NCBI GenBank assembly: GCA_024280095.1
Contig: JAJRQU010000057.1
Span: forward strand, 1 to 39,006
Reading direction: 5' to 3'
Source of the DNA: Alphaproteobacteria bacterium
GTDB lineage: Bacteria; Pseudomonadota; Alphaproteobacteria; Sphingomonadales; Emcibacteraceae
DNA length: 39,006 nt
Below are positions 11,842-33,129 of this stretch, piece by piece. Numbering within the stretch: position 1 is the stretch's first letter; every line of letters begins with the position of its first letter. The translations under genes were made by a program, and so were the position numbers. The notes under the pieces are model-generated. The model worked only from the letters and a program-made list of their open reading frames with translations, was not told the origin of the DNA and made no database searches.

Positions 11842-12966
11842 ATGCTAAGCACGAAGGTAGCATCCAAGGATTTATTAATTCTGGCACAGGAAAAGTCTGT
11901 TTCTGCCAGAAGTGAGCTGCTTGAAAATATCTCGGACTTATTTTTATCTCCCGAGGGACGATTGAATGAGCATGAGCGCGCTCTCATGAATGATGTTTTG
12001 TTGAAACTCATCAATTCAGTAGAAAAAAATGTTAAAAAAGAACTGAGCAAACGCTTAGCCAATATAGACGATGTTTCCCCTGAACTGGCCGCAAAGCTCG
12101 CCAGCGAATCCATTGATATTGCAGAACCCATGTTGCGGAAAAGCGGCGTACTCAAAGACGAGCAATTGATTGAAATCATTCGCAACCGGTCTGATGCGCA
12201 CCGCATGGTCATCGCTATTCGCTCCCACGTGAGCGAAGATGTCAGCGGGGAATTGATTGAAAATGGAAGTGAAGATGTTCTCGAAGCCCTTATTCGCAAT
12301 GAAAACGCAGAACTTTCAGAACTTTCTATAAAGTATCTGGTTGCGGAATCGAAAAATGTTGACCGTTTCCAGGAACCACTTTTGAACCGCGAGGATCTTC
12401 CTGTAGACATGGCTTATCGTATGTATTGGTGGGTTTCAGCGGCCTTGCGGCGTAAAATTGTATTAGAATTCAATCTGGACAGCTCTATGGTAGATGATAT
12501 GCTCGAAATGGCGACGAAATCAGCCCTTCAGCACCATAATTCTACGGATGGCGTTATGAGGACAGCTCTTAAACTTGCCAAGGAACTAGCCCGTAAAAAT
12601 CAATTGACGATCATATTTTTGCGACAATGCCTGCGGCAGGAAAAAGTAAATTTATTTGTGGCAGGTCTGTCGGAAATGACAGGCCTGGACGTAAAAATTA
12701 TCTGGCGCGCCATGCGAGAGCGTACAGGGGAAAGCCTGGCCATTATCGCGAAATCCCTTGAAATAGATCGTGATAGTTTTGCGTCCATTTTCTTGTTAGT
12801 CATACAGTCCCGTACAGGCGGCAAGGCCAGAACAACCGGACTGGTAAATTCTATTTTATCATTGTATGATGAGATTAAGGTCATAAATGCGAAGGTTGCC
12901 GTGAGGCATTGGCAACGTGACTTTGGGTTTCAAGATTCCATATTGTCTATGAAGGATGCAATATAA
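11842..12966 (+). CDS. DUF2336 family protein (first copy)
   Basis: This 374-residue, all-helical protein has no signal peptide or membrane segment. The DUF2336 hallmark is REDLPVDMAYRMYWWVSAAL (about residues 183-202), preceded by a helical-repeat-like region with LLKLINSVEKNVKKELSKRL. The biochemical function of the family is not established to my knowledge. It is found mostly in alphaproteobacteria. Only 2 nt separate it from the PAS histidine kinase that follows, so the two are almost certainly co-translated, which suggests a role tied to that kinase. A second, diverged copy lies 2.5 kb away in opposite orientation. Confidence 0.85.
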   Translation: MLSTKVASKDLLILAQEKSVSARSELLENISDLFLSPEGRLNEHERALMNDVLLKLINSVEKNVKKELSKRLANIDDVSPELAAKLASESIDIAEPMLRKSGVLKDEQLIEIIRNRSDAHRMVIAIRSHVSEDVSGELIENGSEDVLEALIRNENAELSELSIKYLVAESKNVDRFQEPLLNREDLPVDMAYRMYWWVSAALRRKIVLEFNLDSSMVDDMLEMATKSALQHHNSTDGVMRTALKLAKELARKNQLTIIFLRQCLRQEKVNLFVAGLSEMTGLDVKIIWRAMRERTGESLAIIAKSLEIDRDSFASIFLLVIQSRTGGKARTTGLVNSILSLYDEIKVINAKVAVRHWQRDFGFQDSILSMKDAI

Positions 12967-12968
12967 AA

Positions 12969-14669
12969 ATGTTTGGCAGGCCGGATCCAGATATAGCAAG
13001 AGTTAAAAGGACAGGGCAAATGCCGGTGCTAAAGCTGAAGCATCAGACAATCATTCCACTGGCTGTTGTGCGAAATATTTCAAACGGCACGAAGGTCAAT
13101 AAGCGCAGCAACAAAACTGATGCCGTTATGGAAAAGATCCATAAACTTGTTGGTCAGATGAATTTTGATTCCACTATTCCCCTATATATATCAACTGTTT
13201 CTGGTGAATTGGCATATGTTAATGAGGGCTATAAAACCCTCGTATCTTCTTGTGAAAGTGATAAAACGCCTGCGGCGGATGATACTCGTTTGCCAGCCAG
13301 TCTTACGGCAATATTGCATGAGGTTCAATTGACAAGACAGAATGTGTCCGTTGCAGAAATCATAAAAATTAACAATAATCCACGGCAATTCAGGTCTCGG
13401 CATTTTCCTGTATGCGATGATGATGGTAAAGTCATCGCCGTTGGTGGAACATATGTGGATTGTACGGAAAAAGTTCAAACTCTTGGACATGAAAACCTGA
13501 TGCAGGAGAGATTCCGTGATTTTGCGCGGGCGACATCAGACTGGTACTGGGAAATTGACCGTGATTTCAATATTACCTATGTTTCAGACAGGTTGACGGC
13601 AATCACGGGCAAACCCGGCATATTAATGAAGGGAAAATGCTTTGAAGATATTGGGGAATTAAAGTTTGATATTCCAGAACAAAGGCAGCCTGAGACGCAT
13701 TTTCTTGAGGCGAGGAAACCTTTTAGGGATCAACTGTTTCTCATCAAAAACAGTGAAGACGAACTCATATATAACCATTTGAGCGGTGTGCCGATTTTCG
13801 ATAATGCCACGGGTGAATTTCGGGGCTATCGCGGTGCGGGCATGGATGTGACCGCAAGTTATATGGCGCAGCAAGAAACATTGTCTGTCCAGAAATCGCT
13901 GGAACATACGCTCGAAGAATTGACAAATAAAAATGTTCAGCTGGATTTGGCATCGGCTGAATCAGAAGCGGCCCTTGGGGCCAAAAGTGAATTTCTTGCG
14001 GCGATGAGCCATGAACTGCGAACGCCCCTGAATGCGATCATCGGATTTGCAGAGGCGATGAAGATGGAAGTTTTTGGTGATTTAAATCCACAATATGTAT
14101 CCTATAGTAACGATATAATGTCAGCAGGTAAACATCTGCTGGCATTGATCAATGATGTGCTTGATGTGGCCGTGTTGGAAAGTGGAAAAATCAAACTTGA
14201 TGCTGAAAATATCTCATTACGGGAAATCATAGACAATGCATTGAAGCTTATCGTTTTGCGCGCTAATCGCAAAAATCTGGATATTGATGAAATAACAGTA
14301 CCAGAAGATTTCATGATTTATGTTGATGAACGACGCGCGGTACAGATTTTTGTGAATCTATTCAGTAATGCTGTGAAATTTACTCCGGATTTTGGCAAAA
14401 TCGGCCTTAAAGTTTATCAGAAAGATGCCTCTACTGTTGCCGTGACTGTTTGGGACACAGGGATCGGTATCCCAGAGGATCAACAAAAACTGGTCTTTGA
14501 AAAATTCCATCAGGCGACCGATAATATTTATTCCCGTAAAGTAGAGGGTACAGGCCTTGGGCTGCATATCTCACAGCATTTGGCCCGTCAGATGGGCGGT
14601 AATATTACGCTGCGAAGCGTTGTCAACGAAGGCTCTGAGTTTACCGTGATATTTAATTTACATGAATAA
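12969..14669 (+). CDS. PAS-domain sensor histidine kinase
   Basis: A 566-residue soluble kinase. Two PAS-like regions are visible (about 66-170, and 180-300 with WYWEIDRDFNITYVSDRL), then a coiled coil (305-340). HisKA has His348 in AAMSHELRTPLNAIIGFAEA. The HATPase has N467 (LFSNAVKF), DTGIG 496-500 and GTGLGL 527-532. The IIGFAEAMKMEVFGDL stretch is typical of the PleC/DivJ-like alphaproteobacterial group. There is no transmembrane segment and no attached receiver, so the partner regulator is elsewhere. The first 45 residues are basic and low in similarity to anything I know; a later start is possible. It is coupled to the DUF2336 gene upstream. Confidence 0.9.
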   Translation: MFGRPDPDIARVKRTGQMPVLKLKHQTIIPLAVVRNISNGTKVNKRSNKTDAVMEKIHKLVGQMNFDSTIPLYISTVSGELAYVNEGYKTLVSSCESDKTPAADDTRLPASLTAILHEVQLTRQNVSVAEIIKINNNPRQFRSRHFPVCDDDGKVIAVGGTYVDCTEKVQTLGHENLMQERFRDFARATSDWYWEIDRDFNITYVSDRLTAITGKPGILMKGKCFEDIGELKFDIPEQRQPETHFLEARKPFRDQLFLIKNSEDELIYNHLSGVPIFDNATGEFRGYRGAGMDVTASYMAQQETLSVQKSLEHTLEELTNKNVQLDLASAESEAALGAKSEFLAAMSHELRTPLNAIIGFAEAMKMEVFGDLNPQYVSYSNDIMSAGKHLLALINDVLDVAVLESGKIKLDAENISLREIIDNALKLIVLRANRKNLDIDEITVPEDFMIYVDERRAVQIFVNLFSNAVKFTPDFGKIGLKVYQKDASTVAVTVWDTGIGIPEDQQKLVFEKFHQATDNIYSRKVEGTGLGLHISQHLARQMGGNITLRSVVNEGSEFTVIFNLHE

Positions 14670-15515: not shown

Positions 15516-16631
15516 CTAGAATATAGAGCCGCCTGTGGCTTCTGCAACCCATTTTTGTATCGTTAAATGGGCTTTCTTTCTATCAAGCTTTTTAAAATGT
15601 GCAAAAGCCTTGGCCGTTTCGTCATCAGAAATTTCAGTTTCGATATTCTGTGCGGCCCGCGTGAGCTGGAAAATGGTTAAAAATACGCTTTGATCTATGC
15701 CCGCTGCGCAGCAGGAAACAGCTAAGGCCTCGGCACCCCTGTTATAAAGAAAAGAGCGCATTATTTTGCGGGGTACATTGATTATTTTTGCAAAAGCAAT
15801 CTCAAAGAGGGATGATTGCCCTTGATTCAAACATTTCATTAAAAAAGCAGGTGATAGCTTTTTGGCCTGATGCAGCTTGTTAACAAGAATAATTTCAGAC
15901 TTTTCACGGGAAACCTGATCCAGACCACCATTGGTGAGTTCTTCGATGGTCGTGAGTAAAATTTCGTCAATGTCGGATTCACTTATGTTTAAATTTGTTA
16001 ATATTGACTGTTTTAAACTATCCGATACCCATTGATACATTTTGGCGGCCATTTCTGGTGGCAGGTCAGGCCGCTCTATGATTGGTGGTTGGAGGGGCTG
16101 GGCATTCTTTGATTTTTCAATCAGGTCAGCAAAGGAGCTATTATCAATTTTTGCATCATGATTATTGAGCAGAACGATCAGTGTTTTGGTGTTGCCAACA
16201 GTGACGAGTTCGCGGCAAACATTGGAAGATATTTTCTGCCGGCTGGCTATACTCAATTGATGTTGAGCTGTTTTATGCCGGATAATTTTAATCAGTTCAT
16301 TATCGGAGAGTAATTTGCTTAATTCCAATACGGGCAGGGCAACGTCTATTTGATCATTCGCCAGCAAGACAATTAAATCAAGCGGTGCTTCCTTGTTCAA
16401 CGCCAGGCGTTCGGCCAGTTTCTTACGGACAGTCATCTCAACGGTATTGAGGAGCTTATCCAGAATTTCGGACATCAGGGTCTGCTCGGTCTGAGACAAT
16501 TCTGTGTGATATTCTTCTAGGAAACCAGTAATTTTATTGAACAGTAGGGATCGCCCCTCTGCGTTTTTTACGTAGGATAGTTGGAGAATATTAGAAATTT
16601 TCTCGTTTAGATTTGCTTGCTCTGAAGTCAT
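15516..16631 (-). CDS. DUF2336 family protein (second copy)
   Basis: A 371-residue helical protein sharing the DUF2336 hallmark RPDLPPEMAAKMYQWVSDSL and the N-terminal LLNTVEMTVRKKLAERLAL with the copy at 11842, but clearly diverged elsewhere. It lacks signal peptide and membrane helices. The NAD kinase gene follows 62 nt downstream on the same strand. Function unknown. The presence of two copies around a histidine kinase argues for a signalling role, which is inference. Confidence 0.82.
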   Translation of the reverse strand: MTSEQANLNEKISNILQLSYVKNAEGRSLLFNKITGFLEEYHTELSQTEQTLMSEILDKLLNTVEMTVRKKLAERLALNKEAPLDLIVLLANDQIDVALPVLELSKLLSDNELIKIIRHKTAQHQLSIASRQKISSNVCRELVTVGNTKTLIVLLNNHDAKIDNSSFADLIEKSKNAQPLQPPIIERPDLPPEMAAKMYQWVSDSLKQSILTNLNISESDIDEILLTTIEELTNGGLDQVSREKSEIILVNKLHQAKKLSPAFLMKCLNQGQSSLFEIAFAKIINVPRKIMRSFLYNRGAEALAVSCCAAGIDQSVFLTIFQLTRAAQNIETEISDDETAKAFAHFKKLDRKKAHLTIQKWVAEATGGSIF

Positions 16632-21413: not shown

Positions 21414-23513
21414 ATGCGACCGGAAATTTTATACCCATTCTTTGCCGATACCGTTAGTCTCCCCGGCGTGGGGGGACGGATTGCGGCCCTGCTTGAAAAA
21501 ATACTGGGCCGCAAATTGCTGGATATATTCTGGCATTTGCCGGTGGATATTATTGATCGCAGGGCTTGCCCGCCCTTGTCAGAAATTAAATATGATCAGG
21601 TTGTCACGGTGAAGGTCACCATTGATAAACATGACGCGCCGCCGCGTGGTTCGCGCCGGCCTTACCGGGTGTGGTGTCATGATGATAGCGGCCGTTTGCA
21701 ATTGATTTTTTTTCATGCCAAGGGCGATTATATTCTGCGGCAATTGCCCGTGGGGGAGGTGCGCCTGATTAGCGGCAAGGTCGAAGTTTTTAACGAACAG
21801 CTTCAGATGAGCCATCCTGACTATATGGTTTCACCGGACAAACAGGATGACATTCCGGATGTGGAACCCATCTACCCCTTAACCGCAGGCATCAGCAGCA
21901 AAGTCATGACCAAAATTGCGCGGGGAGCCTTGGGAAAATTGGTGCCATTGCCTGAATGGCAGGATGCATCCCTGCGGTCGCGCGAAGCTTGGCCCCCATG
22001 GATGGAGGCGGTGAAGGCGGCCCATATGCCGCAAAGCCACGGGGACTTACCGATGAATAGTCCGGCCCGCGCGCGGCTCGCTTATGATGAGTTTCTGGCC
22101 AATCAGTTGGCCCTTGAAATTATGCGCCGCCAAAATCAAAAGAAAAAGGGGCGTTCTCTGAGGGCCGGGGGGACATTGAGGGCGCGATTGCTGGAAAATT
22201 TGCCCTATCAACTGACCAACGCCCAGAACCGCTGCATCGGCGAAATAGAAAAGGATTTGGCGCAGCCCTATGCCATGATGCGCTTGCTGCAGGGCGATGT
22301 GGGCAGCGGCAAGACGGTTGTGGCCTTGATGGCCATGCTGATCGCCGTGGAAAATAACGCGCAGGCCGCCATGATTGCGCCGACGGAAATTCTGGCGCGG
22401 CAACATTATGTCAGTCTGCTCGATATGACGGCAGGCATGGATATTAACATTGCCGTCCTGACGGGCCGCGATAAAGGCCGGGCGCGACAGAAAACACTGG
22501 ATGATTTGATGTCGGGGGAAATTGATATTCTGGTCGGCACCCATGCCTTATTTCAAAAGGATGTGATCTATCATGATCTGGCTTTTGCGGTGGTTGATGA
22601 ACAACATCGCTTCGGGGTTGAACAGCGCATGGCCTTATCTGCCAAAGGGGCAGCTCAGGGATATGGCGCTATGGATATGCTGGCCATGACGGCAACGCCA
22701 ATTCCGCGAACCCTGACCTTAACGGCTTACGGTGATATGGATAGCTCGCGCCTTGATGAAAAACCGCCGGGGCGAAAGCCTGTGGATACCAGAATAATCC
22801 CCCTGGGCCGCCTTGATGAAGTGGTTCAGGGGATTAAGCGGGCGCTTGTGGGGGGCAACAGGGCCTTTTGGATTTGTCCCTTGGTTGAGGAATCCGAAGT
22901 TCTGGATCTTGCCGCCGCCGAAGAAAGATACCGTCATCTTGAGCAGGTTTTCGGGACAAGGGTCGGGCTGGTTCATGGCAAAATGAAATCTAAGGAAAAA
23001 GATGACGTCATGACGCGGTTTGTCTCAGGTGATATTGATATATTGGTGGCCACCACTGTGGTTGAGGTTGGGGTGAATGTGCCAGAAGCCACCATCATGA
23101 TTATTGAACATGCCGAAAGATTTGGCCTGTCGCAGCTTCATCAGTTGCGGGGCCGGGTTGGCCGCGGGCTGGAAAAATCTACTTGTTTGTTGCTTTACGG
23201 GAATTTGAGCGGCACGGCGGCGAAGGCACGGCTGGAAATCATGCGGGAAACCGAAGATGGTTTTCGGATTGCCGAAGAAGATCTGCGCTTGCGCGGGGCC
23301 GGTGAATTGCTTGGCACCCGTCAAAGCGGCATGCCGGATTTTAAAGTGGCAAGCCTCGAAGAAAATGGGCAATTGATTGCCATAGCGCGGGATGACGCGC
23401 GGCTCATCATGGAAAAGGATCCCGAATTAAAAAGCGAACGGGGGCAGGCTTTAAGAATTTTGCTGTATCTTTTTGAGCGGGACGAAGGCGTTAAATATCT
23501 GACATCAGGCTGA
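21414..23513 (+). CDS. recG: ATP-dependent DNA helicase RecG
   Basis: This 699-residue helicase remodels stalled forks and branched DNA. The N-terminal wedge domain begins PEILYPFFADTVSLPGVGGR and includes an OB fold. Walker A GDVGSGKT is near residue 295, the DEQH box (VVDEQHRFG) near 392, then TATPIPRTL. The C-terminal helicase lobe has VVEVGVNVPEATIMIIEHAERFG and QLRGRVGRG. Length and motifs are normal. It is divergent from sdhE-mfd with an 87-bp gap, and its last 9 bp overlap the convergent DUF502 gene. Confidence 0.97.
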   Translation: MRPEILYPFFADTVSLPGVGGRIAALLEKILGRKLLDIFWHLPVDIIDRRACPPLSEIKYDQVVTVKVTIDKHDAPPRGSRRPYRVWCHDDSGRLQLIFFHAKGDYILRQLPVGEVRLISGKVEVFNEQLQMSHPDYMVSPDKQDDIPDVEPIYPLTAGISSKVMTKIARGALGKLVPLPEWQDASLRSREAWPPWMEAVKAAHMPQSHGDLPMNSPARARLAYDEFLANQLALEIMRRQNQKKKGRSLRAGGTLRARLLENLPYQLTNAQNRCIGEIEKDLAQPYAMMRLLQGDVGSGKTVVALMAMLIAVENNAQAAMIAPTEILARQHYVSLLDMTAGMDINIAVLTGRDKGRARQKTLDDLMSGEIDILVGTHALFQKDVIYHDLAFAVVDEQHRFGVEQRMALSAKGAAQGYGAMDMLAMTATPIPRTLTLTAYGDMDSSRLDEKPPGRKPVDTRIIPLGRLDEVVQGIKRALVGGNRAFWICPLVEESEVLDLAAAEERYRHLEQVFGTRVGLVHGKMKSKEKDDVMTRFVSGDIDILVATTVVEVGVNVPEATIMIIEHAERFGLSQLHQLRGRVGRGLEKSTCLLLYGNLSGTAAKARLEIMRETEDGFRIAEEDLRLRGAGELLGTRQSGMPDFKVASLEENGQLIAIARDDARLIMEKDPELKSERGQALRILLYLFERDEGVKYLTSG

Positions 23514-24176
23514 GGGTTTATCTTCTTTTATGGGCAGGCGGCTTGGATCGACAAGGCCAGCGGAGATAACATATTTGGCCCCTTCATCCGGGGTCATGTC
23601 GAGATAGATAACATCTTTTCTGGGGACGAATAACAGAAAACCGGATGTGGGGTTCGGCGTAGTCGGCAGGAAAACATTGACCACATCATCCTGCAGCTTT
23701 GCTTGCACTTCGCCGGTATTCTCACTGGAAATAAAGGCGATGGCCCAGATACCTTTGCGCGGATATTCCACCAGCACCACGTCCTGAAAACTGCCGGCAT
23801 CCTCGGAGATGACCGTTTCAAAAATCTGCTTCAATGTATTGTAAACACTTCTGACGATTGGCATACGGTTAAGTATTCTTTCGCCAATTCGGATCAGGCT
23901 TTTGCCAAGAAAATTTGCCGCGAAAAAGCCGAGGATCGTTAACATGAAAAAGAGAAAAACCAAGCCGATACCCGGCAACGGGAAAGGCAAATATGTTTCA
24001 GGGTTATACGCCGCCGGAATTAAAGGTTTGATATTGCGGTCAATTAAATCAATGAAGGCAAGGGCCAGATAAATCGTGATGCCCACAGGAGATGCCACCA
24101 CAAGACCGGTCAGGAAATATGTTCTTAAGCGCTGCATTATGGTTTTTTCAGGTTTAACTTTTAAAGGGTCAGTCAT
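23505..24176 (-). CDS. DUF502 family membrane protein
   Basis: About 223 residues from the ATG used here, with two membrane helices near the N-terminus (TYFLTGLVVASPVGITIYLAL, and the GIGLVFLFFMLTILGFFAANF region). The conserved LNRMPIVRSVYNTLKQ motif is followed by a beta-rich soluble domain (VVLVEYPRKGIWAIAFISSE, VFLPTTPNPTSGFLLFVPR) typical of DUF502. Function unknown. It commonly neighbours recG in alphaproteobacteria. A GTG at 24218 is in frame upstream; I prefer the ATG because homologues usually begin shortly before the first helix. Its 3' end overlaps recG by 9 bp. Confidence 0.85.
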   Translation of the reverse strand: MTDPLKVKPEKTIMQRLRTYFLTGLVVASPVGITIYLALAFIDLIDRNIKPLIPAAYNPETYLPFPLPGIGLVFLFFMLTILGFFAANFLGKSLIRIGERILNRMPIVRSVYNTLKQIFETVISEDAGSFQDVVLVEYPRKGIWAIAFISSENTGEVQAKLQDDVVNVFLPTTPNPTSGFLLFVPRKDVIYLDMTPDEGAKYVISAGLVDPSRLPIKEDKPSA

Positions 24177-24238
24177 ATGTTTCAATCTTATAAGTATAAT
24201 AAGAAAATAGGGGGTCACTATGGCATAAATATGTTTTT

Positions 24239-25384
24239 TTAAAGTGTTTTTGCATACATACGATAATTTTTATAGCGCCGGCAGCCGATGGTTTCCAGCA
24301 TTTTAGACAGGCGGGTATTTTCCTCCAGAACCCAAGAGAGCTCCGCATGTGTGCAGCCGGCCTTTGTCGCATGAATTCGGGATTCTTCAATCAGGGCAAA
24401 GGCCATTGCGCCGCCCACGGCAGTATTTTGAAATTCTTTCCGAACGCCCATCAAGGGGACGCGAACTGTTTTATAGGTTGGCCTGATTTTAAGGCGCCAT
24501 AACAGTTTCAATATGCCAAAGGGAAACAGGCTTCCCTTCATGTCGGCGATGATTTCGTTCAGGTTGGGCAGCGTGACCATCATCGCCATGGGCACCCCGT
24601 CATATTCCGCGATATAGGCGAAATCCTCACGGATCAAAAGCTTCATATCCTTTACGGTTTTATTAAGCTCGGCTTCGGTAAAGGGCAGGGCCATCCAGTT
24701 TTCTGACCAGGCATCGTTAAAAATATCGAGAATGGTTTTTAAATCTTCCTCGTAATTCTTCATATTTATGGGCCGTAGTCTGATTTTGCCGTCCCTCATG
24801 CTGCGGGTGATCATTTTTTTGATGGTTGGTGGCAGAACATCTTTGTCAAATCTCAGGTAATAGGCCCATAAATCTTTAGCCTTTTCCATGCCGTAACTGG
24901 TCATTAAATCCTGATAATAGGGCAGGGCGTGATTCATCATCAAACTTGGCGGCGTATCAAAACCGTCGACAAGCATCCCCGCTTCTTCATTGATGGACAG
25001 GCTGAAGGGGCCGATCATCTTGTCACGACCATTCTGTTTCAACCATTGAGACGCCGTGTCCAAAAGAGCCTTTGCCGCTTGTGCATCATTAATACATTCA
25101 AAGAAGCCGAAATGGCCAATTTTTTCATGATGTCGTTGTTCCACCAATTCATCAATCTGCGCGCTGATCCGGCCTATGATCTGTTCCCCTTTACAGGCCA
25201 GCCAGAATTTTGCGTGGGCATGCTCAAAATAAGGGTTCTTTGACGGATTCAATGTTTCCATACGTTCTAATATCAGGGGCGCAACCCAATTGGGATCATC
25301 TTTATAAAGATCCCAAGGCACTTTGACGAAGTGGTGCAAATCCTGTTTGTTTTTCACCTCTTTTATGGTGATGGCTGATGTCAT
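24239..25384 (-). CDS. bcerS: GNAT-fold N-acyltransferase, candidate bacterial ceramide synthase
   Basis: A 381-residue protein beginning with a conserved block (KVPWDLYKDDPNWVAPLILE) found in a family often annotated as N-acetyltransferase, with an acyl-CoA-binding GNAT-like fold. The C-terminal half has MGVRKEFQNTAVGGAMAFALIE, resembling the acyl-donor binding loop and helix, and ends in AELSWVLEENTRLSKMLETI. In Caulobacter a protein of this kind is the ceramide synthase bCerS, which N-acylates 3-ketodihydrosphingosine. The other four ceramide genes stand 3.4 kb upstream. It is last in an operon with lptF and lptG (10-nt gap to lptG). Assignment rests on family look plus context. Confidence 0.65.
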   Translation of the reverse strand: MTSAITIKEVKNKQDLHHFVKVPWDLYKDDPNWVAPLILERMETLNPSKNPYFEHAHAKFWLACKGEQIIGRISAQIDELVEQRHHEKIGHFGFFECINDAQAAKALLDTASQWLKQNGRDKMIGPFSLSINEEAGMLVDGFDTPPSLMMNHALPYYQDLMTSYGMEKAKDLWAYYLRFDKDVLPPTIKKMITRSMRDGKIRLRPINMKNYEEDLKTILDIFNDAWSENWMALPFTEAELNKTVKDMKLLIREDFAYIAEYDGVPMAMMVTLPNLNEIIADMKGSLFPFGILKLLWRLKIRPTYKTVRVPLMGVRKEFQNTAVGGAMAFALIEESRIHATKAGCTHAELSWVLEENTRLSKMLETIGCRRYKNYRMYAKTL

Positions 25385-25394
25385 GTGAGTATCC

Positions 25395-26522
25395 TTATTC
25401 TTCAGTCAGCAAAATAAAACTAAGCCCCGTGAGGGTAAAAAGCAAGAAGGGCAGCCAAGCCGCAATGATTGGCGGCACAGCGCCGTACTGGCCCAATGCA
25501 ACAAACAGGTTGTTTATAACGAAATAGCCAAAACCCATGGCACCGGTCAAAGCAATCCGGCCAAAAAGATTGCCGCCCCGGTGCAGCCCGAAGGCCGCGA
25601 GACCCGCAAGTAAAGGCATGAGCAGGGTGCTGAGCGGCGCGACGAATTTCTGATACAGCATGGTTTCAAAACTTGCCGTGTTGTGGCCTTCTTTTTTAAG
25701 CTGCGTAATGGCGGTGCGCAGCCGTTGGATGCTTACGCGGTCTGGTTTAAGGGCCAAGGCAATAAAACGTTTTGGGGGGATGTCAGTTTCCCAGATAAGA
25801 TTTTCCATGGGGGTGACTTTTAAAGTTTTGATGTCAAATTCCTTGACCTCGAACATTGTCCATTTATCATCGCGAAATACGGCAAAATCGGCCTTGATCA
25901 GGGAGGTGATTCGCTTGTCCTTATCCCGAATATACTGGGTCACTTTATCCAGAAGTAAAATGCTGCCATTACGGCTGGCACTTTCCGCCTTGACAAGATT
26001 ATTACCATCCGTGACCCATGTGTCATAAACCGTGTCAGGGGCAGGGGGCAGATCGGCAGCATATTTATTTTCTTTCCAGTTTTTAAGCTCTGCCTTGGCG
26101 TGAACAGCCACTGTTTCCGTAAATACAAAATGTAAACTGGCAATCAATAGAGACATGAGAAGCAGGGGCGTTATTATTCTAAAGGCTGACCAGCCCGATG
26201 CCTTCATAATAATAATTTCGCTGTGGATATTCAGGCCCGCGAGGCTGATGATCGCCGCCAAAAGGGCAACGAAGGGCGAAAAGAGCGATAATAATGTTGG
26301 GGTTCGAAGAGTTACATAATGCCACAGATCAGCATTGACCGCACCGTCACCGGCCAATATGTCGTCTGATTCAGACAAAAGGTCGAGCATTTGCAATGTG
26401 GCCACCAGGCCGATTAATATGATGATATACCGGCTGATAAAAAGTTTGGCCAGATAAACGTCCATACTGCCGGGGTTGAAAATTCCGCCGAGACGTCCCG
26501 AAAATTTGATAAATCGTTCCAT
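25395..26522 (-). CDS. lptG: LptG-type lipid export permease
   Basis: 375 residues in LptF/LptG family layout: three N-terminal membrane helices (about 30-55, 70-95, 108-130), a periplasmic beta-jellyroll region of about 150 residues, and three C-terminal helices (about 290-372). The inner-membrane LptB2FG complex extracts lipopolysaccharide. This gene follows lptF after one nucleotide and precedes the GNAT acyltransferase by 10 nt. The usual neighbours lptD and surA are absent. The first 20 residues are an extra N-terminal extension before the usual start, so an internal start (near MDVYLAKLF) is possible. Confidence 0.85.
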   Translation of the reverse strand: MERFIKFSGRLGGIFNPGSMDVYLAKLFISRYIIILIGLVATLQMLDLLSESDDILAGDGAVNADLWHYVTLRTPTLLSLFSPFVALLAAIISLAGLNIHSEIIIMKASGWSAFRIITPLLLMSLLIASLHFVFTETVAVHAKAELKNWKENKYAADLPPAPDTVYDTWVTDGNNLVKAESASRNGSILLLDKVTQYIRDKDKRITSLIKADFAVFRDDKWTMFEVKEFDIKTLKVTPMENLIWETDIPPKRFIALALKPDRVSIQRLRTAITQLKKEGHNTASFETMLYQKFVAPLSTLLMPLLAGLAAFGLHRGGNLFGRIALTGAMGFGYFVINNLFVALGQYGAVPPIIAAWLPFLLFTLTGLSFILLTEE

Positions 26523-26523
26523 A

Positions 26524-27699
26524 TTAATTGACTGTCCGTAATCGTCTGATGATACGGCTTATGGCCTCCACCATAACTTCATAGATAATTTCAATGCGGC
26601 GCAGGGGTAATCCGCCTACTTTATAGGTTCCAATATAATATAATCTTGCCGTGAGCAGAATGAAAACCAATGTGGGCAACCAGATCACCAACCAGGGGGA
26701 AACCCCCCCCATAGCCGAGAAATTAAGGCCGAATTCCAGTAGTTTATGATAAATTAGCAGAATGATCACCCCGACCGTGATGCCAAGCGCACGCCCGGAT
26801 CTTTTGGCAACCAAGCCCAGAGGAATAGCCAAAAACGGTACAATTAAAATTGAAAGTGCGCGGGCAATGCGGGAATGAATTGTCGCGATTACCGCCGGGT
26901 CATCACTCCCCCGCGCCTGCCAAAGTTCTATTATGGTCATTTCCTTTGCCTCTTGCCCCCGGTCACGGAAGGCGGCAAAATTTGGCACATCCATGGGCAA
27001 GTCATGCATATCAAAATTGACGATATTAGGTCGGCTCTGGGTTAAATCCAAATCTATGATCGTGCCATTATACACTCTTAAGATCAGAAAGCGTTGATCG
27101 AGAGAGACAAAAAAGCTGCCTCTTTCTGCGCTGATGGATTGAATTCGGCCATTCTCTGATTCTTTTTGGGCAAATATATTGATGAGTTCCCGTCCTGAAT
27201 CACGGGATTCTTCGATGCGGAGCATCAAGCCATCGCCAAGATCTGTAAATTCTCCTGCCTTGATACTGGCCCCTAATGCCCCGCTTCTAACGTCAAAGAC
27301 CAAACCTTGATAGGCATATCTGCTATAGGGCTGGACAAAGCCGACCACGATGACATTTATGATTAGCAGGAATATCGCGATATAGAAAGTGGGTACGGCC
27401 AAACGATTAAGGCTCATTCCTGTGGCCATCAATGCGTCAAGCTCGCTGTTCATCGCGAGCTTTCGTACCGCAAGAAGAACGCCTAAAAACATGGATAACG
27501 GCAATACCAGCGTCAGATATTGCGGCATTAGATTGCCTAGCATGCGCCAGACAATATCAATCGGGCCGCCCTGATTAATCACAAAATCAAAAAGGCTGAG
27601 CATTTTTTCCAATAAAAGCAACACAGCAGATATGCCTAAAGTTACAAATAAAGGCACAATCGTTGCCTGCAATATATATTTATCAATTTTTTTTAGCAT
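26524..27699 (-). CDS. lptF: LptF-type lipid export permease
   Basis: 391 residues with the LptF pattern. The N-terminal MLKKIDKYILQATIVPLFVT precedes helix 1, and the LVLPLSMFLGVLLAVRKLAMNSELDALMATG region contains the coupling helix that contacts the ATPase LptB. A periplasmic domain (about 145-275) and three C-terminal helices follow. It is first gene of the lptF-lptG-acyltransferase operon, reading from the 141-bp region shared with the divergent lipid kinase. No lptB, lptC or lptA is present here, so it must use subunits encoded elsewhere. Either the cell's only LptF or a second, specialised copy. Confidence 0.85.
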   Translation of the reverse strand: MLKKIDKYILQATIVPLFVTLGISAVLLLLEKMLSLFDFVINQGGPIDIVWRMLGNLMPQYLTLVLPLSMFLGVLLAVRKLAMNSELDALMATGMSLNRLAVPTFYIAIFLLIINVIVVGFVQPYSRYAYQGLVFDVRSGALGASIKAGEFTDLGDGLMLRIEESRDSGRELINIFAQKESENGRIQSISAERGSFFVSLDQRFLILRVYNGTIIDLDLTQSRPNIVNFDMHDLPMDVPNFAAFRDRGQEAKEMTIIELWQARGSDDPAVIATIHSRIARALSILIVPFLAIPLGLVAKRSGRALGITVGVIILLIYHKLLEFGLNFSAMGGVSPWLVIWLPTLVFILLTARLYYIGTYKVGGLPLRRIEIIYEVMVEAISRIIRRLRTVN

Positions 27700-27840
27700 T
27701 AAGTCGCTTTTGGTCTGGATTTAGCCTAATTTCAAACTTATAGCTTTTGATCTGTCAAGAATATAGCTAAAAGGAAAAATAATTTTTGCTTAATGACCTG
27801 TTTTTATGGTTTTTATAGGGCCAAAATAGAAAAATAACAG
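27700..27840. promoter_or_regulatory. Divergent promoter region between lptF and the lipid kinase
   Basis: This 141-bp AT-rich region must drive lptF-lptG-bcerS on one strand and the kinase on the other. I see no strong palindrome or consensus promoter. A GGAAG at 27843-27847 could serve as ribosome site for a TTG at 27853 in the kinase gene. Confidence 0.35.
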
Positions 27841-28806
27841 TTGGAAGTCGCGTTGGGTATCATTGCCATATTAAGTAGTCCGTCGTCTTTTGCCCATAAT
27901 GGCGAAATGGAGAAAATTCGCACCGTCATTTCAGAGGGGTCGGGAATTTTCCATTACGAAGTGGAAAAACATAAAGATATTGCCGAAGCCCTTACAAGAT
28001 TTCAGCAGGCGAATGTTGATGCCATTGTCATTCTTAGTGACCGGGCTCTGACATCGGCAACTTTTGAGCATATTGTTGAGAAAGGCCTGCTCAAAGGGAC
28101 GGATATCCCTTTGGCAATTCTGCCGGCAGGGGATAATAATATTGTTGCGGAAAATTTTGGAGCAACACGCTCGGAACCTCATTTGGTCTTGAAAAATCTG
28201 TTGGAGAACCATCAAAAAGGAAACCTCCCTGTAACAGAAGTCCCGCTGATCAAATTGGAAGGCGTCAGGGGCGTTGGCTATCTTTACGGGCTTTTCTTTT
28301 GTGCCGGTGAAGTGGTTAAACAAAATAAACTCTTTAAGCGGAAAATATACGGAAAAAACTTGTTTAAAAGCTTTCGTGACTGGCTGAATATATTAAACCT
28401 CATTCAATCCGCCTATCGCCGTTCCATGGGGAAAAATAAACTTGAAGAGGTTATTCGCATAAATCGAAATCAGCGCGGCGCCGTTGTCGGACATTTTTTC
28501 ATGCTTCTGATCACGACCCTTGATAAATCTTTTTGGGGGGTGTCCACCCCACAAAAGAAAGGGCAGGATAAGGCGCATTTCATTAGTGTGGAAAATACGC
28601 CAAAAGCAATTCTGGCAACGGGCAAGATGATGCTTGGCGGCAAATATGATGGTGACCATGTGGGCAACATCATTGCAGAGATCCAGCATGCCAGAATAGT
28701 GCTTAAAGCACCGTTTGTCCTTGATGGCAGCTATTATGAAACAGATGAGACAGGTGAATTATTTGTCACCGTGACAAGTCGCCTGAGATTTATCAAATTA
28801 AGCTAA
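27841..28806 (+). CDS. Divergent diacylglycerol/ceramide kinase-like protein
   Basis: About 321 residues with the diacylglycerol-kinase catalytic fold: an N-terminal Rossmann-like half containing VDAIVILSDRALTSATF (59-75) and IPLAILPAGDNNIVA (89-103), and a C-terminal half ending in the family's FVLDGSYYETDETGELFVTV block. The canonical GGDGT loop is replaced by LSDRA, and GTxND by GDNN, so nucleotide binding is altered. The Caulobacter ceramide kinase CpgB is an evolutionarily distinct member of this superfamily, and the spt context suggests the same substrate. No ATG is available: TTG at 27841 or 27853 are the options, the latter with better ribosome-site spacing. Its stop overlaps the convergent spt stop by 9 bp. 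Confidence 0.68.
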   Translation: MEVALGIIAILSSPSSFAHNGEMEKIRTVISEGSGIFHYEVEKHKDIAEALTRFQQANVDAIVILSDRALTSATFEHIVEKGLLKGTDIPLAILPAGDNNIVAENFGATRSEPHLVLKNLLENHQKGNLPVTEVPLIKLEGVRGVGYLYGLFFCAGEVVKQNKLFKRKIYGKNLFKSFRDWLNILNLIQSAYRRSMGKNKLEEVIRINRNQRGAVVGHFFMLLITTLDKSFWGVSTPQKKGQDKAHFISVENTPKAILATGKMMLGGKYDGDHVGNIIAEIQHARIVLKAPFVLDGSYYETDETGELFVTVTSRLRFIKLS

Positions 28807-30027
28807 TACGCGCTTGGGCATATCCTGCAGGAGACCAAGTTTAGTGCCGACCAGAATGAATTTCTCCAGCATAAAGTCGATCTGCTCAAGACTATGGGCC
28901 GCAGAAAGACTACAGCGCATCAGATTTAATTTTTTAGGGGTTGCAGGCGGCAGGGCAAGGTTAACATAAACCCCTTCCTTAATCATTTCTCCCCAAAAAG
29001 TAATGGCCGTATTTTGCTCAGCTATAATGATTGCCGCGATTGGACTTTCGCCTGTGGTGCCCATTTCAAATCCGGCTTGGCTTAACCCATTGTTGAGCCG
29101 CCTTGAGTTGCTGAGTAATTTGGCGCGAAGATTGCTGTTGGCAATTAATTCCAGTGCCTTGGTCGCAGAGGCGACAACGGACGGGGGCAGGGACGCCGTA
29201 AATATGTAAGGGCGGCATACAAGGCGCAGTACTTCGAATTTTGGATTGTTGGAGACGCAATAGCCGCCAATCGTTCCCACAGACTTACTAAAGGTGCCGA
29301 CGATGAAATCTATTTGATCCTCAACGCCCTGTTCCTGTGCGACGCCGCGTCCGGTTTCGCCGAATACGCCGATTGAGTGGGCTTCGTCAACAAGGACAAA
29401 CGCATTATGGGCCTTGGATATCCGGGTGAGCTCTTTTAAAGGGGCCTGATCACCAAGCATGCTGTATACGCCTTCCAAAACGACCAGAATACCGGCTTGG
29501 GGATCATTTTTTCGGATACGGGCAAGCTTTTTGTCCAGATTATGGGCATCATTATGCTTGAAGCGCACGACAGTGGCATTGCCCATGGCACAGCCATCAT
29601 AGATACTGGCGTGGCTGTCCGCATCGATAACAACATAATCCTTTGGGCCAGCAAGGGTCGCAATGATACCAAGATTGGCCTGATAACCCGTAGAAAAAAC
29701 GATTGCATGCTTCGTATCATAGAATTCTCTGAGCGTATCTTCCAATTTTTTATGGCTATTATACGTCCCATTTAGCATGCGAGACCCCGTCGTGCCGGTG
29801 CCTAAAGTAAGCAGGGCCTCTTGGGCGGCATCCATACATTCCTGATTAAACGTCATGCCCATATAATTATTGGTGCCGGCAAGGATGGTTTCCCGGCCAT
29901 TGATAATGGCGGTTGTCGGTGATAATACCTGTTCCATACTTACGGTGAAGGGGTTTCCCGCGCCCTTTGGAAGACTATTATAGTCATTCAGTATCGGGTC
30001 AAATTTTTCAAAAAGATCAAATGTCAT
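28798..30027 (-). CDS. spt: Serine palmitoyltransferase (alpha-oxoamine synthase family)
   Basis: This 409-residue PLP enzyme condenses serine with a fatty acyl thioester to 3-ketodihydrosphingosine. PLP-site features: Lys248 in GTFSKSVGTIGG, Asp214 in VDEAHSIG, and His139 in DADSHASIYDG, which would stack on the cofactor. The family members KBL and AONS share these. The neighbouring dedicated acyl carrier protein, epimerase-type reductase and acyl-AMP ligase point to Spt, as does the FSTGYQANLGIIATLAGPKD block. Its start overlaps the acyl carrier protein stop by 4 nt. In Caulobacter the same order spt-acpR-cerR-aasR is found. Confidence 0.85.
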   Translation of the reverse strand: MTFDLFEKFDPILNDYNSLPKGAGNPFTVSMEQVLSPTTAIINGRETILAGTNNYMGMTFNQECMDAAQEALLTLGTGTTGSRMLNGTYNSHKKLEDTLREFYDTKHAIVFSTGYQANLGIIATLAGPKDYVVIDADSHASIYDGCAMGNATVVRFKHNDAHNLDKKLARIRKNDPQAGILVVLEGVYSMLGDQAPLKELTRISKAHNAFVLVDEAHSIGVFGETGRGVAQEQGVEDQIDFIVGTFSKSVGTIGGYCVSNNPKFEVLRLVCRPYIFTASLPPSVVASATKALELIANSNLRAKLLSNSRRLNNGLSQAGFEMGTTGESPIAAIIIAEQNTAITFWGEMIKEGVYVNLALPPATPKKLNLMRCSLSAAHSLEQIDFMLEKFILVGTKLGLLQDMPKRVLA

Positions 30028-30287
30028 TGTTCACTCAATAATTGTTTTACGGTTTCGGCAAATTGACCAACTGTTTCCATATCCGGAAGCATGTTGAGAG
30101 GAACGGTAATGTCAAATTCATCTTCAATTTCAGACAAGATATCCATCACGTTCAGGGAATCAAGTTCCAGGTCAACGCTGAATAAGCTGTCTTTGGTAAT
30201 GGGGATGTTTTTTTTGTTAAAGGGGGCAATGATCTTGCAAATTTGCTCAAAAATTTCATCAACAGTTTGTGTCATATACATTTCCAT
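30024..30287 (-). CDS. acpR: Dedicated acyl carrier protein
   Basis: An 87-residue acidic carrier protein whose phosphopantetheine attachment site is Ser44 in LELDSLNVMD. Length and the three-helix pattern are standard. MTQTVDE (ATG at 30275), with GGA close upstream, is an alternative start four codons in. It overlaps spt by 4 nt, so carrier and condensing enzyme are made together, consistent with Spt taking its acyl chain from this protein rather than from CoA. Loading would be by the acyl-AMP ligase at 31390. Confidence 0.88.
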   Translation of the reverse strand: MEMYMTQTVDEIFEQICKIIAPFNKKNIPITKDSLFSVDLELDSLNVMDILSEIEDEFDITVPLNMLPDMETVGQFAETVKQLLSEQ

Positions 30288-30329
30288 CCGGAATAATCTT
30301 TGAAATTACATCCTGATTACAGGTGAATT

Positions 30330-31292
30330 TCACATCAAATTATTGTCTTTATACCATTTCAGGGTTTTTTCGAACCCTCGTTTTAAGCTAGTCTCTGGTT
30401 TCCAATTTGTCAGTCTCATAACATGTGGCCCATGACATATCCAGTCCGAGTGACATAATTCGTTAACTTTTTCAGGTGTGATCATGGGAATATAGCCGAA
30501 TAATGTCGAAAATAAGACATTAATATGGCCAAAAGCCTTTAATATAAATCGGGGCATAACGACATTAAAAACACTTATATTCAGTATATCAGCCGCCGTT
30601 TCATACATCTCCTGATTGGAGTAACCGTCTTTTTTCCCATCATCTACGTCAAGAATTCGGCCATAGCAGGCGTGATTATCGGTGACAGCAACCAAGGCGC
30701 GGGCCAAGTCCGGCGCATAAATCCAGGAGGCTCTGTTATCAGACCCACCGGGCAAAACGGTAATTCTATAAGAAACGGCCTTAAATATTTTAAGTGTCTC
30801 CTTGTCCTCTGGCCCATAAATTCCGGGGGGGCGAAGGATCGTCCAGTTTATATTTCCCGCCTGTTCGGTCAATATTTCTTCGCCTCTGCGTTTGCTCTGT
30901 GCATAGGCGGATAAATTTCTCTCCCGAGCGGCCAGTGATGATAATAAAATAAAATGAGGTTTTGCGCGAGATTTCATGGAGGACTGATGAATGACATCCA
31001 CCAGTGTTTTAACGGCGTAACTATTGACATGGTTAAAGTCATCTTTGGATTTGGCCTTAACCAGACCGGCCAGATGATAAACAACATCGGCATTCTTGAC
31101 GAGTTCCATCAAGGCCTGCCGATTATCAAGATCACCAGATATCCAGTTTATATTTTCTTTTTCCGGCTTTTCTTTTTTCGGCCGGGGCCTGCGGGTCAGG
31201 GCATTAACCTGAAACCCTTGGGCGATGAGTTCACATATTAAATGCTTCCCAACAAAACCTGTGGCCCCTGTAACTGCTGCAATTTTTGTCAT
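30330..31292 (-). CDS. cerR: NAD(P)-dependent epimerase-family reductase, candidate ceramide reductase
   Basis: About 320 residues, extended SDR fold. The nucleotide loop VTGATGFVGKHL lies near the N-terminus, the active-site Tyr and Lys are in SAYAQSKRRGE, and the Ser in LLSSLA. The substrate-binding half has LRPPGIYGPEDKE. In Caulobacter, CerR reduces the 3-keto group after N-acylation by bCerS. A UDP-sugar epimerase is unlikely in this context. The ATG at 31292 is chosen over a TTG two codons earlier. A hairpin overlaps the ribosome-site region. It lies 42 nt upstream of acpR. Confidence 0.8.
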   Translation of the reverse strand: MTKIAAVTGATGFVGKHLICELIAQGFQVNALTRRPRPKKEKPEKENINWISGDLDNRQALMELVKNADVVYHLAGLVKAKSKDDFNHVNSYAVKTLVDVIHQSSMKSRAKPHFILLSSLAARERNLSAYAQSKRRGEEILTEQAGNINWTILRPPGIYGPEDKETLKIFKAVSYRITVLPGGSDNRASWIYAPDLARALVAVTDNHACYGRILDVDDGKKDGYSNQEMYETAADILNISVFNVVMPRFILKAFGHINVLFSTLFGYIPMITPEKVNELCHSDWICHGPHVMRLTNWKPETSLKRGFEKTLKWYKDNNLM

Positions 31293-31301
31293 AATCAAAA
31301 A

Positions 31302-31329
31302 CGGTAATCCCTTTTATGAGAGATTACCG
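31302..31329 (-). promoter_or_regulatory. Inverted repeat overlapping the cerR translation start region
   Basis: CGGTAATC (31302-31309) and GATTACCG (31322-31329) form an 8-bp perfect stem with a 12-nt loop, 10 nt before the cerR ATG on the minus strand. The purine-rich AAGGGA that could serve as ribosome site lies in the loop and 3' arm. It may modulate cerR translation or bind a dimeric protein. Confidence 0.4.
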
Positions 31330-31389
31330 CCATAAGTGTTTGTTCGTCAATAAATTCTGACCTTTATTGTCCACAGATCCTAGGTGGTT

Positions 31390-33129
31390 TTAAGAGAATA
31401 GTTGGCCGTCAAGATATTGCTGGCGGGCTTTCACACGGCTTAATTTTCCAGATGATGTACGCGGAAGGGAGCGCGGCGGAATTAAGGCAACAATTGGGGA
31501 AATGCCAATTAAGGTATGGACTGTTTCCTTGATTTTATTTTCTATTGCGGCGCGTTCGGCCTCATCGCGGGTTCGGCATTGTACCAGAATTGCGGGGGTT
31601 TCCTCGTCCTGTTTGCCGGGAATGGAGACGGCGGCGATATCACCTGCGCGCATATCGTCCAATTGCTCTACAGCCCATTCGATGTCTTGGGGCCAATGGT
31701 TCTTGCCATTGATAATAATCAAATCCTTGATCCGGCCAATGATATAGAGGGAGCCTTCTTTCATGTAGCCCATATCGCCGGTATCGAGCCAACCATCCTC
31801 GGACAGGCACAGATCAGTGGCCTCTTGATCCTGAAAATATCCAACCATAACACTGGTTCCGCGAACGCAGACCCGGCCAATTTGATATTCCCCGAGGTCA
31901 ATATTATTATCATCCCGAATTTCCAGTTCATATTCAGGAATAGGAACGCCGCAGTTCACAACCCTGCGATAATTGGCACCGCTGCCGTTTACCTTGAGCT
32001 CTTTCAGGCATTTTTCTTCGCCGGTTAATACTTTCTCATCCACCAGGTCAATTTCAAAACCAGTATTCAACGGGGCGAAGCTAACGGCAAGCGTACATTC
32101 CGCAAGGCCATAGCTGGGCAGGAAAGTCGTGCTTCTGAAACCGACATCTTTGAAAGTTTCCTGAAATTGTGTCAAGACATCAGCGCGGATCATATCGCCG
32201 CCAATTCCCGCCACGCGCCAACTCGACAAATCCAGTTCGGCTATGGTGGTGGGGCTCGCGCGGCGTGCGCAGATATCATAGCCGAAAGTCGGGCTATAGG
32301 CGAGGGTGCCTTTGTTCCGTGAAATCAGTTTGAGCCACTGTAATGGGCGGCGGGCAAAAGCCTCGGTCGCTAAATAATCTGTTGTGACCTGATTGGCAAT
32401 GGGGGACAGCAATGTGCCGACCAGCCCCATATCATGATAAAAGGGCAACCATGACACAACCCGGTCATCTTCATTCAGATCCATGCCGACATAGCCAATA
32501 CCATAACTGTTTGCCATTAATGATTTATGGGTCACGGAAACGCCGTGAGGGAAACGTGTGCTGCCGGATGAATATTGCAAATAGGCCAGGTCTTCTGGTT
32601 TTGCGACATGCAGCGGAATAGATTTAATGTCTTTTGCAGAGGATTGCTCTTCAAATGTGGTTGAGGTTCCAACGAACTTCATTTTCAGGCCCGAGGTGGC
32701 TTCATCCAGTAAAGGCAACATATAGGATGCAGATATGGCCACCGATGCGCCGCAGCTTTTCATTTGTTGGTTAAGCTGGCTGGTATATCCCTCGCGGCCC
32801 CCGAATGATGTAGGCAAAGGCAACGGAACCGGTAACAATCCGGCATATTGGCAGCCGATGAAATAACAGACAAACTCATCACTTGTTTCGGCGATTAAAG
32901 CAACGCGGGAGCCTTTTTTAATGCCGAAATGGATGAAGCGCCGGCCAATTTCCTGAGCTTTTTTACAGATTTCGGAAAAAGTGATGCTGGTTTCAAGTTC
33001 GCCTCTGGGGGAATAAAAATTCAAACCTCGAATACCACCTGCGGCATACTCAATAGCTTCCAAAAGGGTGCCGAAATCAGCAAACCTGCGGGGAAGAGTA
33101 GGGTCTTGTGTTGGTAAAACTTTGCGCAT
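31390..33129 (-). CDS. aasR: Fatty acyl-AMP ligase / acyl-ACP synthetase
   Basis: A 579-residue ANL-superfamily enzyme. The P-loop is LQYSSGSTRFPHG (185-197); SWLPFYHDMGLVGTLLSPI and PSYGLAECTLA are FAAL hallmarks; DGWLDTGDMGYM holds the adenylate-binding Asp; and the C-terminal PRTSSGKLSR carries the catalytic lysine. FAAL-type enzymes activate fatty acids as adenylates and pass them to carrier proteins rather than CoA, matching the acpR gene in the same operon and the Caulobacter AasR role. It is first gene of the aasR-cerR-acpR-spt run. The start is ATG, with no obvious ribosome site. Confidence 0.88.
   Translation of the reverse strand: MRKVLPTQDPTLPRRFADFGTLLEAIEYAAGGIRGLNFYSPRGELETSITFSEICKKAQEIGRRFIHFGIKKGSRVALIAETSDEFVCYFIGCQYAGLLPVPLPLPTSFGGREGYTSQLNQQMKSCGASVAISASYMLPLLDEATSGLKMKFVGTSTTFEEQSSAKDIKSIPLHVAKPEDLAYLQYSSGSTRFPHGVSVTHKSLMANSYGIGYVGMDLNEDDRVVSWLPFYHDMGLVGTLLSPIANQVTTDYLATEAFARRPLQWLKLISRNKGTLAYSPTFGYDICARRASPTTIAELDLSSWRVAGIGGDMIRADVLTQFQETFKDVGFRSTTFLPSYGLAECTLAVSFAPLNTGFEIDLVDEKVLTGEEKCLKELKVNGSGANYRRVVNCGVPIPEYELEIRDDNNIDLGEYQIGRVCVRGTSVMVGYFQDQEATDLCLSEDGWLDTGDMGYMKEGSLYIIGRIKDLIIINGKNHWPQDIEWAVEQLDDMRAGDIAAVSIPGKQDEETPAILVQCRTRDEAERAAIENKIKETVHTLIGISPIVALIPPRSLPRTSSGKLSRVKARQQYLDGQLFS

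Follow-up and report, generated by a model that had tools for sequence, protein, structure and literature searches.

The subject of this analysis is a sphingolipid locus on contig JAJRQU010000057.1, a stretch of 39,006 nucleotides (nt) that is called the window below, from a marine, Emcibacter-like alphaproteobacterium that GTDB places in the Sphingomonadales. Eight open reading frames (ORFs), running from aasR to bcerS, were confirmed at positions 24239-33129. They comprise five ceramide genes, the two genes of an LptF-LptG (LptFG) permease pair homologous to the exporter of lipopolysaccharide (LPS), and a homologue of the ceramide kinase gene cpgB. The reading that we regard as probable, based on comparative genomics, is that of a compact locus for ceramide synthesis and export, in which the sole LptFG pair exports a sphingolipid that replaces LPS, the kinase is inactive, and the phosphoglycerate branch of the pathway has been lost. 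The genes and the evidence used to name them are as follows.

31390..33129, minus strand: aasR, fatty acyl-AMP ligase in the role of acyl-acyl carrier protein synthetase, 579 amino acids (aa); NF006624, 3pbk, adjoins cerR-acpR-spt
30330..31298, minus strand: cerR, ceramide reductase of the short-chain dehydrogenase/reductase (SDR), NDUFA9-like type, 322 aa, TTG start; Pfam Epimerase, solved homologues
30024..30287, minus strand: acpR, dedicated acyl carrier protein, 87 aa, DSL phosphopantetheine motif; PF00550
28798..30027, minus strand: spt, serine palmitoyltransferase, 409 aa, pyridoxal phosphate lysine in GTFSKSVG; NF047599, 2x8u, tree
27841..28806, plus strand: cpgB homologue of the diacylglycerol kinase (DAGK)/sphingosine kinase (SphK) fold, probable pseudokinase, 321 aa, TTG start; AlphaFold2 (AF2) model, Foldseek, motif losses
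27700..27840, no strand: divergent intergenic region between the kinase homologue and lptF, 141 nt; gene coordinates
26524..27699, minus strand: lptF (LptF2, sphingolipid-linked type), 391 aa; TIGR04407, clade
25395..26522, minus strand: lptG (LptG2, sphingolipid-linked type), 375 aa; TIGR04408, clade, residue comparison
24239..25384, minus strand: bcerS, GNAT-superfamily bacterial ceramide synthase, 381 aa; PF00583, linkage to lptG/spt loci

The order of these eight genes is identical in those Emcibacter-like loci long enough to show all eight, and many other Alphaproteobacteria show the core order as well, so the arrangement is not due to chance. The closest named Spt records come from Emcibacter-like marine metagenome-assembled genomes (MAGs), with 98% identity to NORP63 and 83-85% to two Emcibacter sp. 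MAGs, followed by Kordiimonadaceae and Sphingomonadaceae.

Ceramide synthesis genes

The locus has the composition of a Caulobacter-type ceramide locus, with Spt, a dedicated acyl carrier protein encoded next to spt, AasR, CerR, and bCerS. The comparison with Caulobacter was made through family models, solved homologues, and a class member (G264, locus L201) whose gene order is like that of the published cluster. An initial annotation made from the sequence had listed the five ceramide genes, the spt-acpR-cerR-aasR order, and a 4-nt overlap, and all three are borne out by the ORFs and family models; the acpR stop and spt start share the letters ATGA. Spt passes the NF047599 equivalog model (610.9 bits against a cut-off of 500), and among solved structures its closest homologues are serine palmitoyltransferases of the Sphingomonas type at 504-473 bits (2x8u at 504), compared with 216 for 2-amino-3-ketobutyrate CoA ligase (KBL) and ~170 for 8-amino-7-oxononanoate synthase (AONS). 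The initial annotation had named grouping with AONS or KBL as the outcome that would overturn the Spt assignment. The tree instead separates 20 Spt-locus proteins from 11 paralogues resembling AONS, KBL, or 5-aminolevulinate synthase (ALAS), drawn from the window genome and three relatives, with support of 100/100. The window Spt also retains the residues conserved across Spt proteins.

The remaining enzymes are assigned with models of varying specificity. AasR scores 799.9 bits with the fatty acyl-AMP ligase model NF006624 (cut-off 600), and its best solved homologue is the fatty acyl-adenylate ligase 3pbk at 525.7 bits. CerR is an epimerase-type SDR (Pfam Epimerase, E 3e-27), identified with general models, no CerR-specific one having appeared among the libraries searched; its best solved homologues include the NDUFA9/39-kDa subunits of complex I, and Caulobacter CerR is likewise NDUFA9-like (PMC11087976). 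AcpR matches PP-binding PF00550 at 39.3 bits (cut-off 20.8, E 8e-10), and its phosphopantetheine site is directly visible as LELDSLNVMDIL, which holds the DSL motif. bCerS matches GNAT PF00583 at 28.8 bits (cut-off 20.7), and a PDB search with it returned no relative; its homologues adjoin lptG in spt loci across the class.

By homology with the Caulobacter work, AasR would load a fatty acid onto AcpR, and Spt would condense the acyl-AcpR with serine to give 3-ketosphinganine. bCerS would then attach the second acyl chain, and CerR would reduce the keto group to yield dihydroceramide.

It could be argued that the locus is vestigial and that the organism makes no sphingolipid, as its kinase has decayed and the partner gene cpgC has been lost in the lineage, both discussed below. 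We find this hardly credible and reject it. The ratio of nonsynonymous to synonymous substitution (dN/dS) is 0.03-0.08 for spt and low also for lptF, lptG, aasR, and cerS (a low AasR identity to locus L062 in this comparison is a contig-end artefact), the conserved Spt residues are in place, and nearly all relatives keep the locus.

Homologous clusters of 13-17 genes have been described in alpha-, beta-, and gammaproteobacteria (Olea-Ozuna et al. 2024, PMC11324152), and the window locus is a reduced variant of the one known from Caulobacter crescentus. With that cluster (CC_1168-CC_1152, PMC11324152) it shares the aasR-cerR-acpR-spt order, a kinase gene near spt, and an lptF2-lptG2 pair adjoining cerS; in contrast to it, the window locus has no cpgC, cpgA, cpgD, or other headgroup genes, and its kinase is degenerate. 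The genes of Sphingomonas wittichii are spread over six regions (PMC11324152), whereas those of the window form one 9-kb block. Sphingomonas also shares with the window organism the GTDB order, the presence of Spt, and the failure to find LpxC. That such complete loci are described for few lineages, as the initial annotation had it, is too strong a statement given these published clusters and the presence of Spt above cut-off in 36 of 40 relatives from the order and 38 of 241 members of the class.

The LptFG permease in a bacterial order without detectable LPS genes

LptF and LptG are two permease genes whose products make up one permease pair. Both pass their equivalog models (TIGR04408 at 274.8 bits against a cut-off of 240 for LptG; TIGR04407 at 251.5 against 230 for LptF), and solved LPS-exporting LptFG structures are clear homologues. 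In family, length, and equivalog-level match the pair thus resembles the LptB2FG exporter of E. coli, Shigella, and Klebsiella (PMC5548808, PMC6744409), and an ordinary LPS exporter that adjoins ceramide genes by chance would fit these scores. The genomic setting speaks against this. Neither LpxC nor LpxB was found in any of 40 genomes of the order, the window genome included (0/40 for each, and 0/29 for each among the high-quality genomes), by a search that did obtain matches in the controls E. coli and Caulobacter. LpxC was also found in none of the 14 genomes behind named loci, among them Eilatimonas, Kordiimonas, Pseudokordiimonas, Sphingopyxis, Erythrobacter, and Emcibacter MAGs. LPS synthesis therefore appears, from these gene searches, to be missing across the whole order. 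LptD is nonetheless present in 38 of the 40 genomes and in 29/29 of high quality, and exactly one LptFG pair occurs in 32 of the 36 with any match, in most of the order genomes examined adjoining spt or cerS. The window pair is the sole one found in its genome; Caulobacter, by comparison, has a second.

A wider survey of 241 Alphaproteobacteria places this pattern in context. Spt occurs without LpxC in 23 genomes, both occur in 16 (one through a partial Spt match), LpxC alone in 190, and neither in 12. Loss of LpxC is thus associated with Spt (23/35 versus 16/206, Fisher p 1.6e-13, a value computed over related genomes and uncorrected for shared ancestry). At least two LptFG pairs are found in 15 of the 16 genomes with both genes, and a single pair in 21 of the 23 with Spt but no LpxC (in one genome, G244, a third and weaker match occurs besides); genomes with LpxC and no Spt usually have one pair. 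A maximum-likelihood tree of 78 LptF+LptG pairs splits, with support of 100/100, into an LPS type (29 pairs) and a sphingolipid-linked type (49 pairs). The latter takes every pair on the same stretch as a cerS or Spt gene, the lone pair in each examined genome that has Spt but no LpxC, and the window pair itself; the former takes every pair from the LPS-only genomes examined. Genomes that have both LPS and Spt keep a separate pair of the LPS type. In two LPS-only genomes (G061 and G079), lptF and lptG of the LPS type are widely separated, whereas the sphingolipid-linked genes form tight pairs. With no LpxC or LpxB found in the order genomes searched and the pair outside the LPS-type clade, the plain LPS exporter is rejected as very improbable.

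The two types also differ at the end of the first transmembrane helix of LptG, where an arginine pair (RR) is conserved in the LPS type and the residues are mostly acidic or neutral in the sphingolipid-linked type. The window LptG is acidic here (SESDDIL), with DD where LPS-type alphaproteobacterial proteins have RR. The equivalent positions in E. coli LptG are K40 and K41, which touch LPS at the 4'-phosphate and in the inner core (PMC6744409). Because the K40E/K41E substitution is tolerated in E. coli, with no effect on growth (PMC5548808), the RR-to-DD contrast is a correlate and not proof of substrate, and as a sequence feature it is only suggestive.

From comparative genomics, we infer export of the sphingolipid through LptFG and LptD. 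The locus LptF and LptG would form the inner-membrane permease of the Lpt bridge and pass the finished sphingolipid to the LptD translocon, and the sphingolipid would take the place of LPS in the outer leaflet. Since the order as a whole seems to have no LPS synthesis, the locus pair would be the only LptFG of the cell. Sphingomonads are known to have glycosphingolipids in place of LPS (PMC11087976). The route of bacterial sphingolipids to the outer membrane has been stated to be unknown (PMC11324152), and LptC2, LptF2, and LptG2 have been proposed as probable participants in their transport (Olea-Ozuna et al. 2024, PMC11324152). The initial annotation had allowed only that the locus possibly covers transport, which stands but understates the case for a sole LptFG pair of the sphingolipid-linked clade in an order with no detectable lpxC or lpxB.

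Several observations weigh against this reading. The window genome (G000) is 2.63 Mb in 221 contigs and 85% complete, so single absences from it may be gaps, and the claim rests on its relatives. The Lpt search was confined to LptD, LptF, and LptG. Four LptFG pairs that have neither spt nor cerS beside them joined the sphingolipid-linked group on tree placement, and G245's second pair, a long branch, could not be placed. In one genome (G102), LpxC and Spt occur together with a single pair, which is of the LPS type, and six genomes with neither LpxC nor Spt still carry LptFG. Two near-complete genomes of one family (G093 and G272, family f62) have Spt but no match to LpxC or LptFG; another route of sphingolipid placement, or no sphingolipid in the outer leaflet, must be considered for these. 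Finally, the substrate of the window LptFG could be another outer-membrane lipid.

In its fuller form, this last alternative holds that the synthesis part is right, that the substrate of the sphingolipid-linked LptFG is some other lipid of the outer membrane or a glycolipid precursor, and that the linkage reflects shared regulation of the envelope. G093 and G272 lend it some weight, as they suggest that sphingolipid synthesis is possible without the permease. Against it, the presence of the second LptFG type follows that of Spt class-wide, both inside and outside LPS-bearing genomes, and the type is tightly linked to cerS. We consider it unlikely, with more in its favour than the chance placement of an LPS exporter.

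What makes the locus chiefly valuable is the support that it gives, on genomic grounds, to a dedicated sphingolipid Lpt permease, previously only suggested. The class-wide pattern, in which one LptFG pair serves LPS and a distinct pair tracks Spt, sharpens the LptF2-LptG2 suggestion into a testable claim, and it singles out bacteria with sphingolipids and no LPS as natural examples of an Lpt machine at work in the absence of LPS. No prior description of the two-type LptFG pattern or of the pseudokinase was found in a literature search that left most subscription papers outside its reach. It likewise yielded nothing decisive on the lipids of Emcibacter or on surveys of LPS loss among Alphaproteobacteria.

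The kinase homologue and loss of CpgC

The initial annotation had included headgroup phosphorylation among the functions of the locus, and this part is not supported. The window kinase shares with the ceramide kinase CpgB (PMC10331486) its position in the locus, a homologous sequence, and the predicted DAGK/SphK fold: its AF2 model, with a predicted local distance difference test (pLDDT) score of 79.7, matches SphK1, DgkB, and YegS in Foldseek at E 1e-15 to 1e-12. Its Pfam DAGK_cat score of 19.4 bits falls under the 23.6 cut-off, a first sign that the protein is degenerate. Unlike CpgB, it has no GGDG motif and no DGE glutamate, and the CpgC partner is gone. GGDGT is replaced by SDRAL and DGE by DGS; measured against 61 homologues from other loci, the losses comprise the asparagine of SNP (N14), GGDGT, the threonine of GKTN (T100), and the glutamate of DGE. 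Residues G68, D69, and G70 are present in 61/61 of the other kinases, and the GGDGT motif is present in 0/12 of the Emcibacter type. For the glutamate, E298, the counts are 57/61 and 0/12. All 18 readable genomes of the Emcibacter family have lost GGDGT. GGDG is an ATP-binding motif common to CpgB and human ceramide kinase (PMC10331486).

CpgC is encoded between spt and the kinase gene in other loci and was found in 14 of the 40 order genomes. A genome-wide search found no homologue in the window genome or in any relative with the degenerate kinase. Of the family genomes, all 23 others are without it and only G018 (locus L252) keeps CpgC, together with an intact GGDGT. CpgA- and CpgD-like genes were not found at the locus, to which that search was limited.

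Under the full pathway implied by the initial annotation, ceramide would be phosphorylated by the locus kinase, made into ceramide phosphoglycerate as in Caulobacter, and exported. The kinase homologue does lie beside spt, where Caulobacter has CpgB (PMC11324152), and its gene is under purifying selection, with a dN/dS of 0.20 relative to NORP63 and 0.05-0.08 relative to two congeners. Set against the loss of every one of the four motif positions, of GGDGT in 18/18 family genomes, and of CpgC in those same 18, and against a locus with no CpgA- or CpgD-like genes, this is a distinctly improbable pathway. An active ceramide kinase is rejected on the loss of GGDGT and the DGE glutamate and on the missing CpgC. 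Because the motifs are lost and the gene is still under purifying selection, the kinase homologue is probably a maintained pseudokinase. The simplest reading is that the phosphoglycerate branch was lost and the protein retained in a non-catalytic role, possibly as a lipid-binding component. A more specific and rather doubtful idea is that in Emcibacter-like bacteria the dead kinase acts as a non-enzymatic partner, such as a lipid-presenting or regulatory subunit, and that the entire Lpt bridge now serves only a sphingolipid that CpgB does not phosphorylate. The pseudokinase serves as a caution that ceramide phosphate is not to be read from gene names.

Acylglycerol kinase is among the Foldseek matches of the window kinase. 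It has a kinase-independent role in the human TIM22 complex, and the partner role suggested for the dead ceramide kinase would be loosely comparable.

Homologues of CpgC in relatives (L252:8080-9075 and L070:11265-12224; the gene is absent from the window) have a predicted fold like that of the Tam41 cytidine diphosphate diacylglycerol (CDP-DAG) synthase, which accounts for the top five Foldseek matches (E ~1e-6; model pLDDT 86). Because of this predicted fold, CpgC might make CDP-ceramide from ceramide-1-phosphate and CTP. The locus of relatives (L252) further encodes a polysaccharide/MATE-type flippase, a fatty acid hydroxylase, and a DUF2141 protein; the window locus has none of the three. 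The Caulobacter cluster, too, includes a potential flippase gene (PMC11324152).

L252:2484-4142, L252:1577-2377, L252:6436-7020: extra locus genes of relatives, absent from the window

Transcription units and neighbouring genes

Two further features border or interrupt the genes listed above.

23505..24218, minus strand: DUF502 membrane protein, 20 nt downstream of bcerS; PF04367, E 7e-38
31300..31331, minus strand: strong stem-loop with a T-rich tail in the aasR/cerR gap, possible terminator or attenuator; terminator scan

Because the spacings along lptF-lptG-bcerS-DUF502 are only 1, 10, and 20 nt, the layout suggests one transcript separate from the spt group, with DUF502 as a probable member and a likely start in the intergenic region at 27700..27840. 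In Caulobacter, too, cerS is not part of the operon formed by the four remaining ceramide genes (PMC11324152), which agrees with a separate lptF-bcerS unit here. In the Emcibacter-like loci that were examined, too, the DUF502 gene stays next to bcerS. The 3' ends of the kinase gene and spt overlap by 9 nt. The stem-loop between aasR and cerR has a 13-pair stem and is the only long one of note in a scan whose total of 17 compares with 12.1 +/- 3.6 expected. Elsewhere in the window, two DUF2336 proteins (11842-12966, plus strand, and 15516-16631, minus strand) flank a PAS histidine kinase at 12969-14669.

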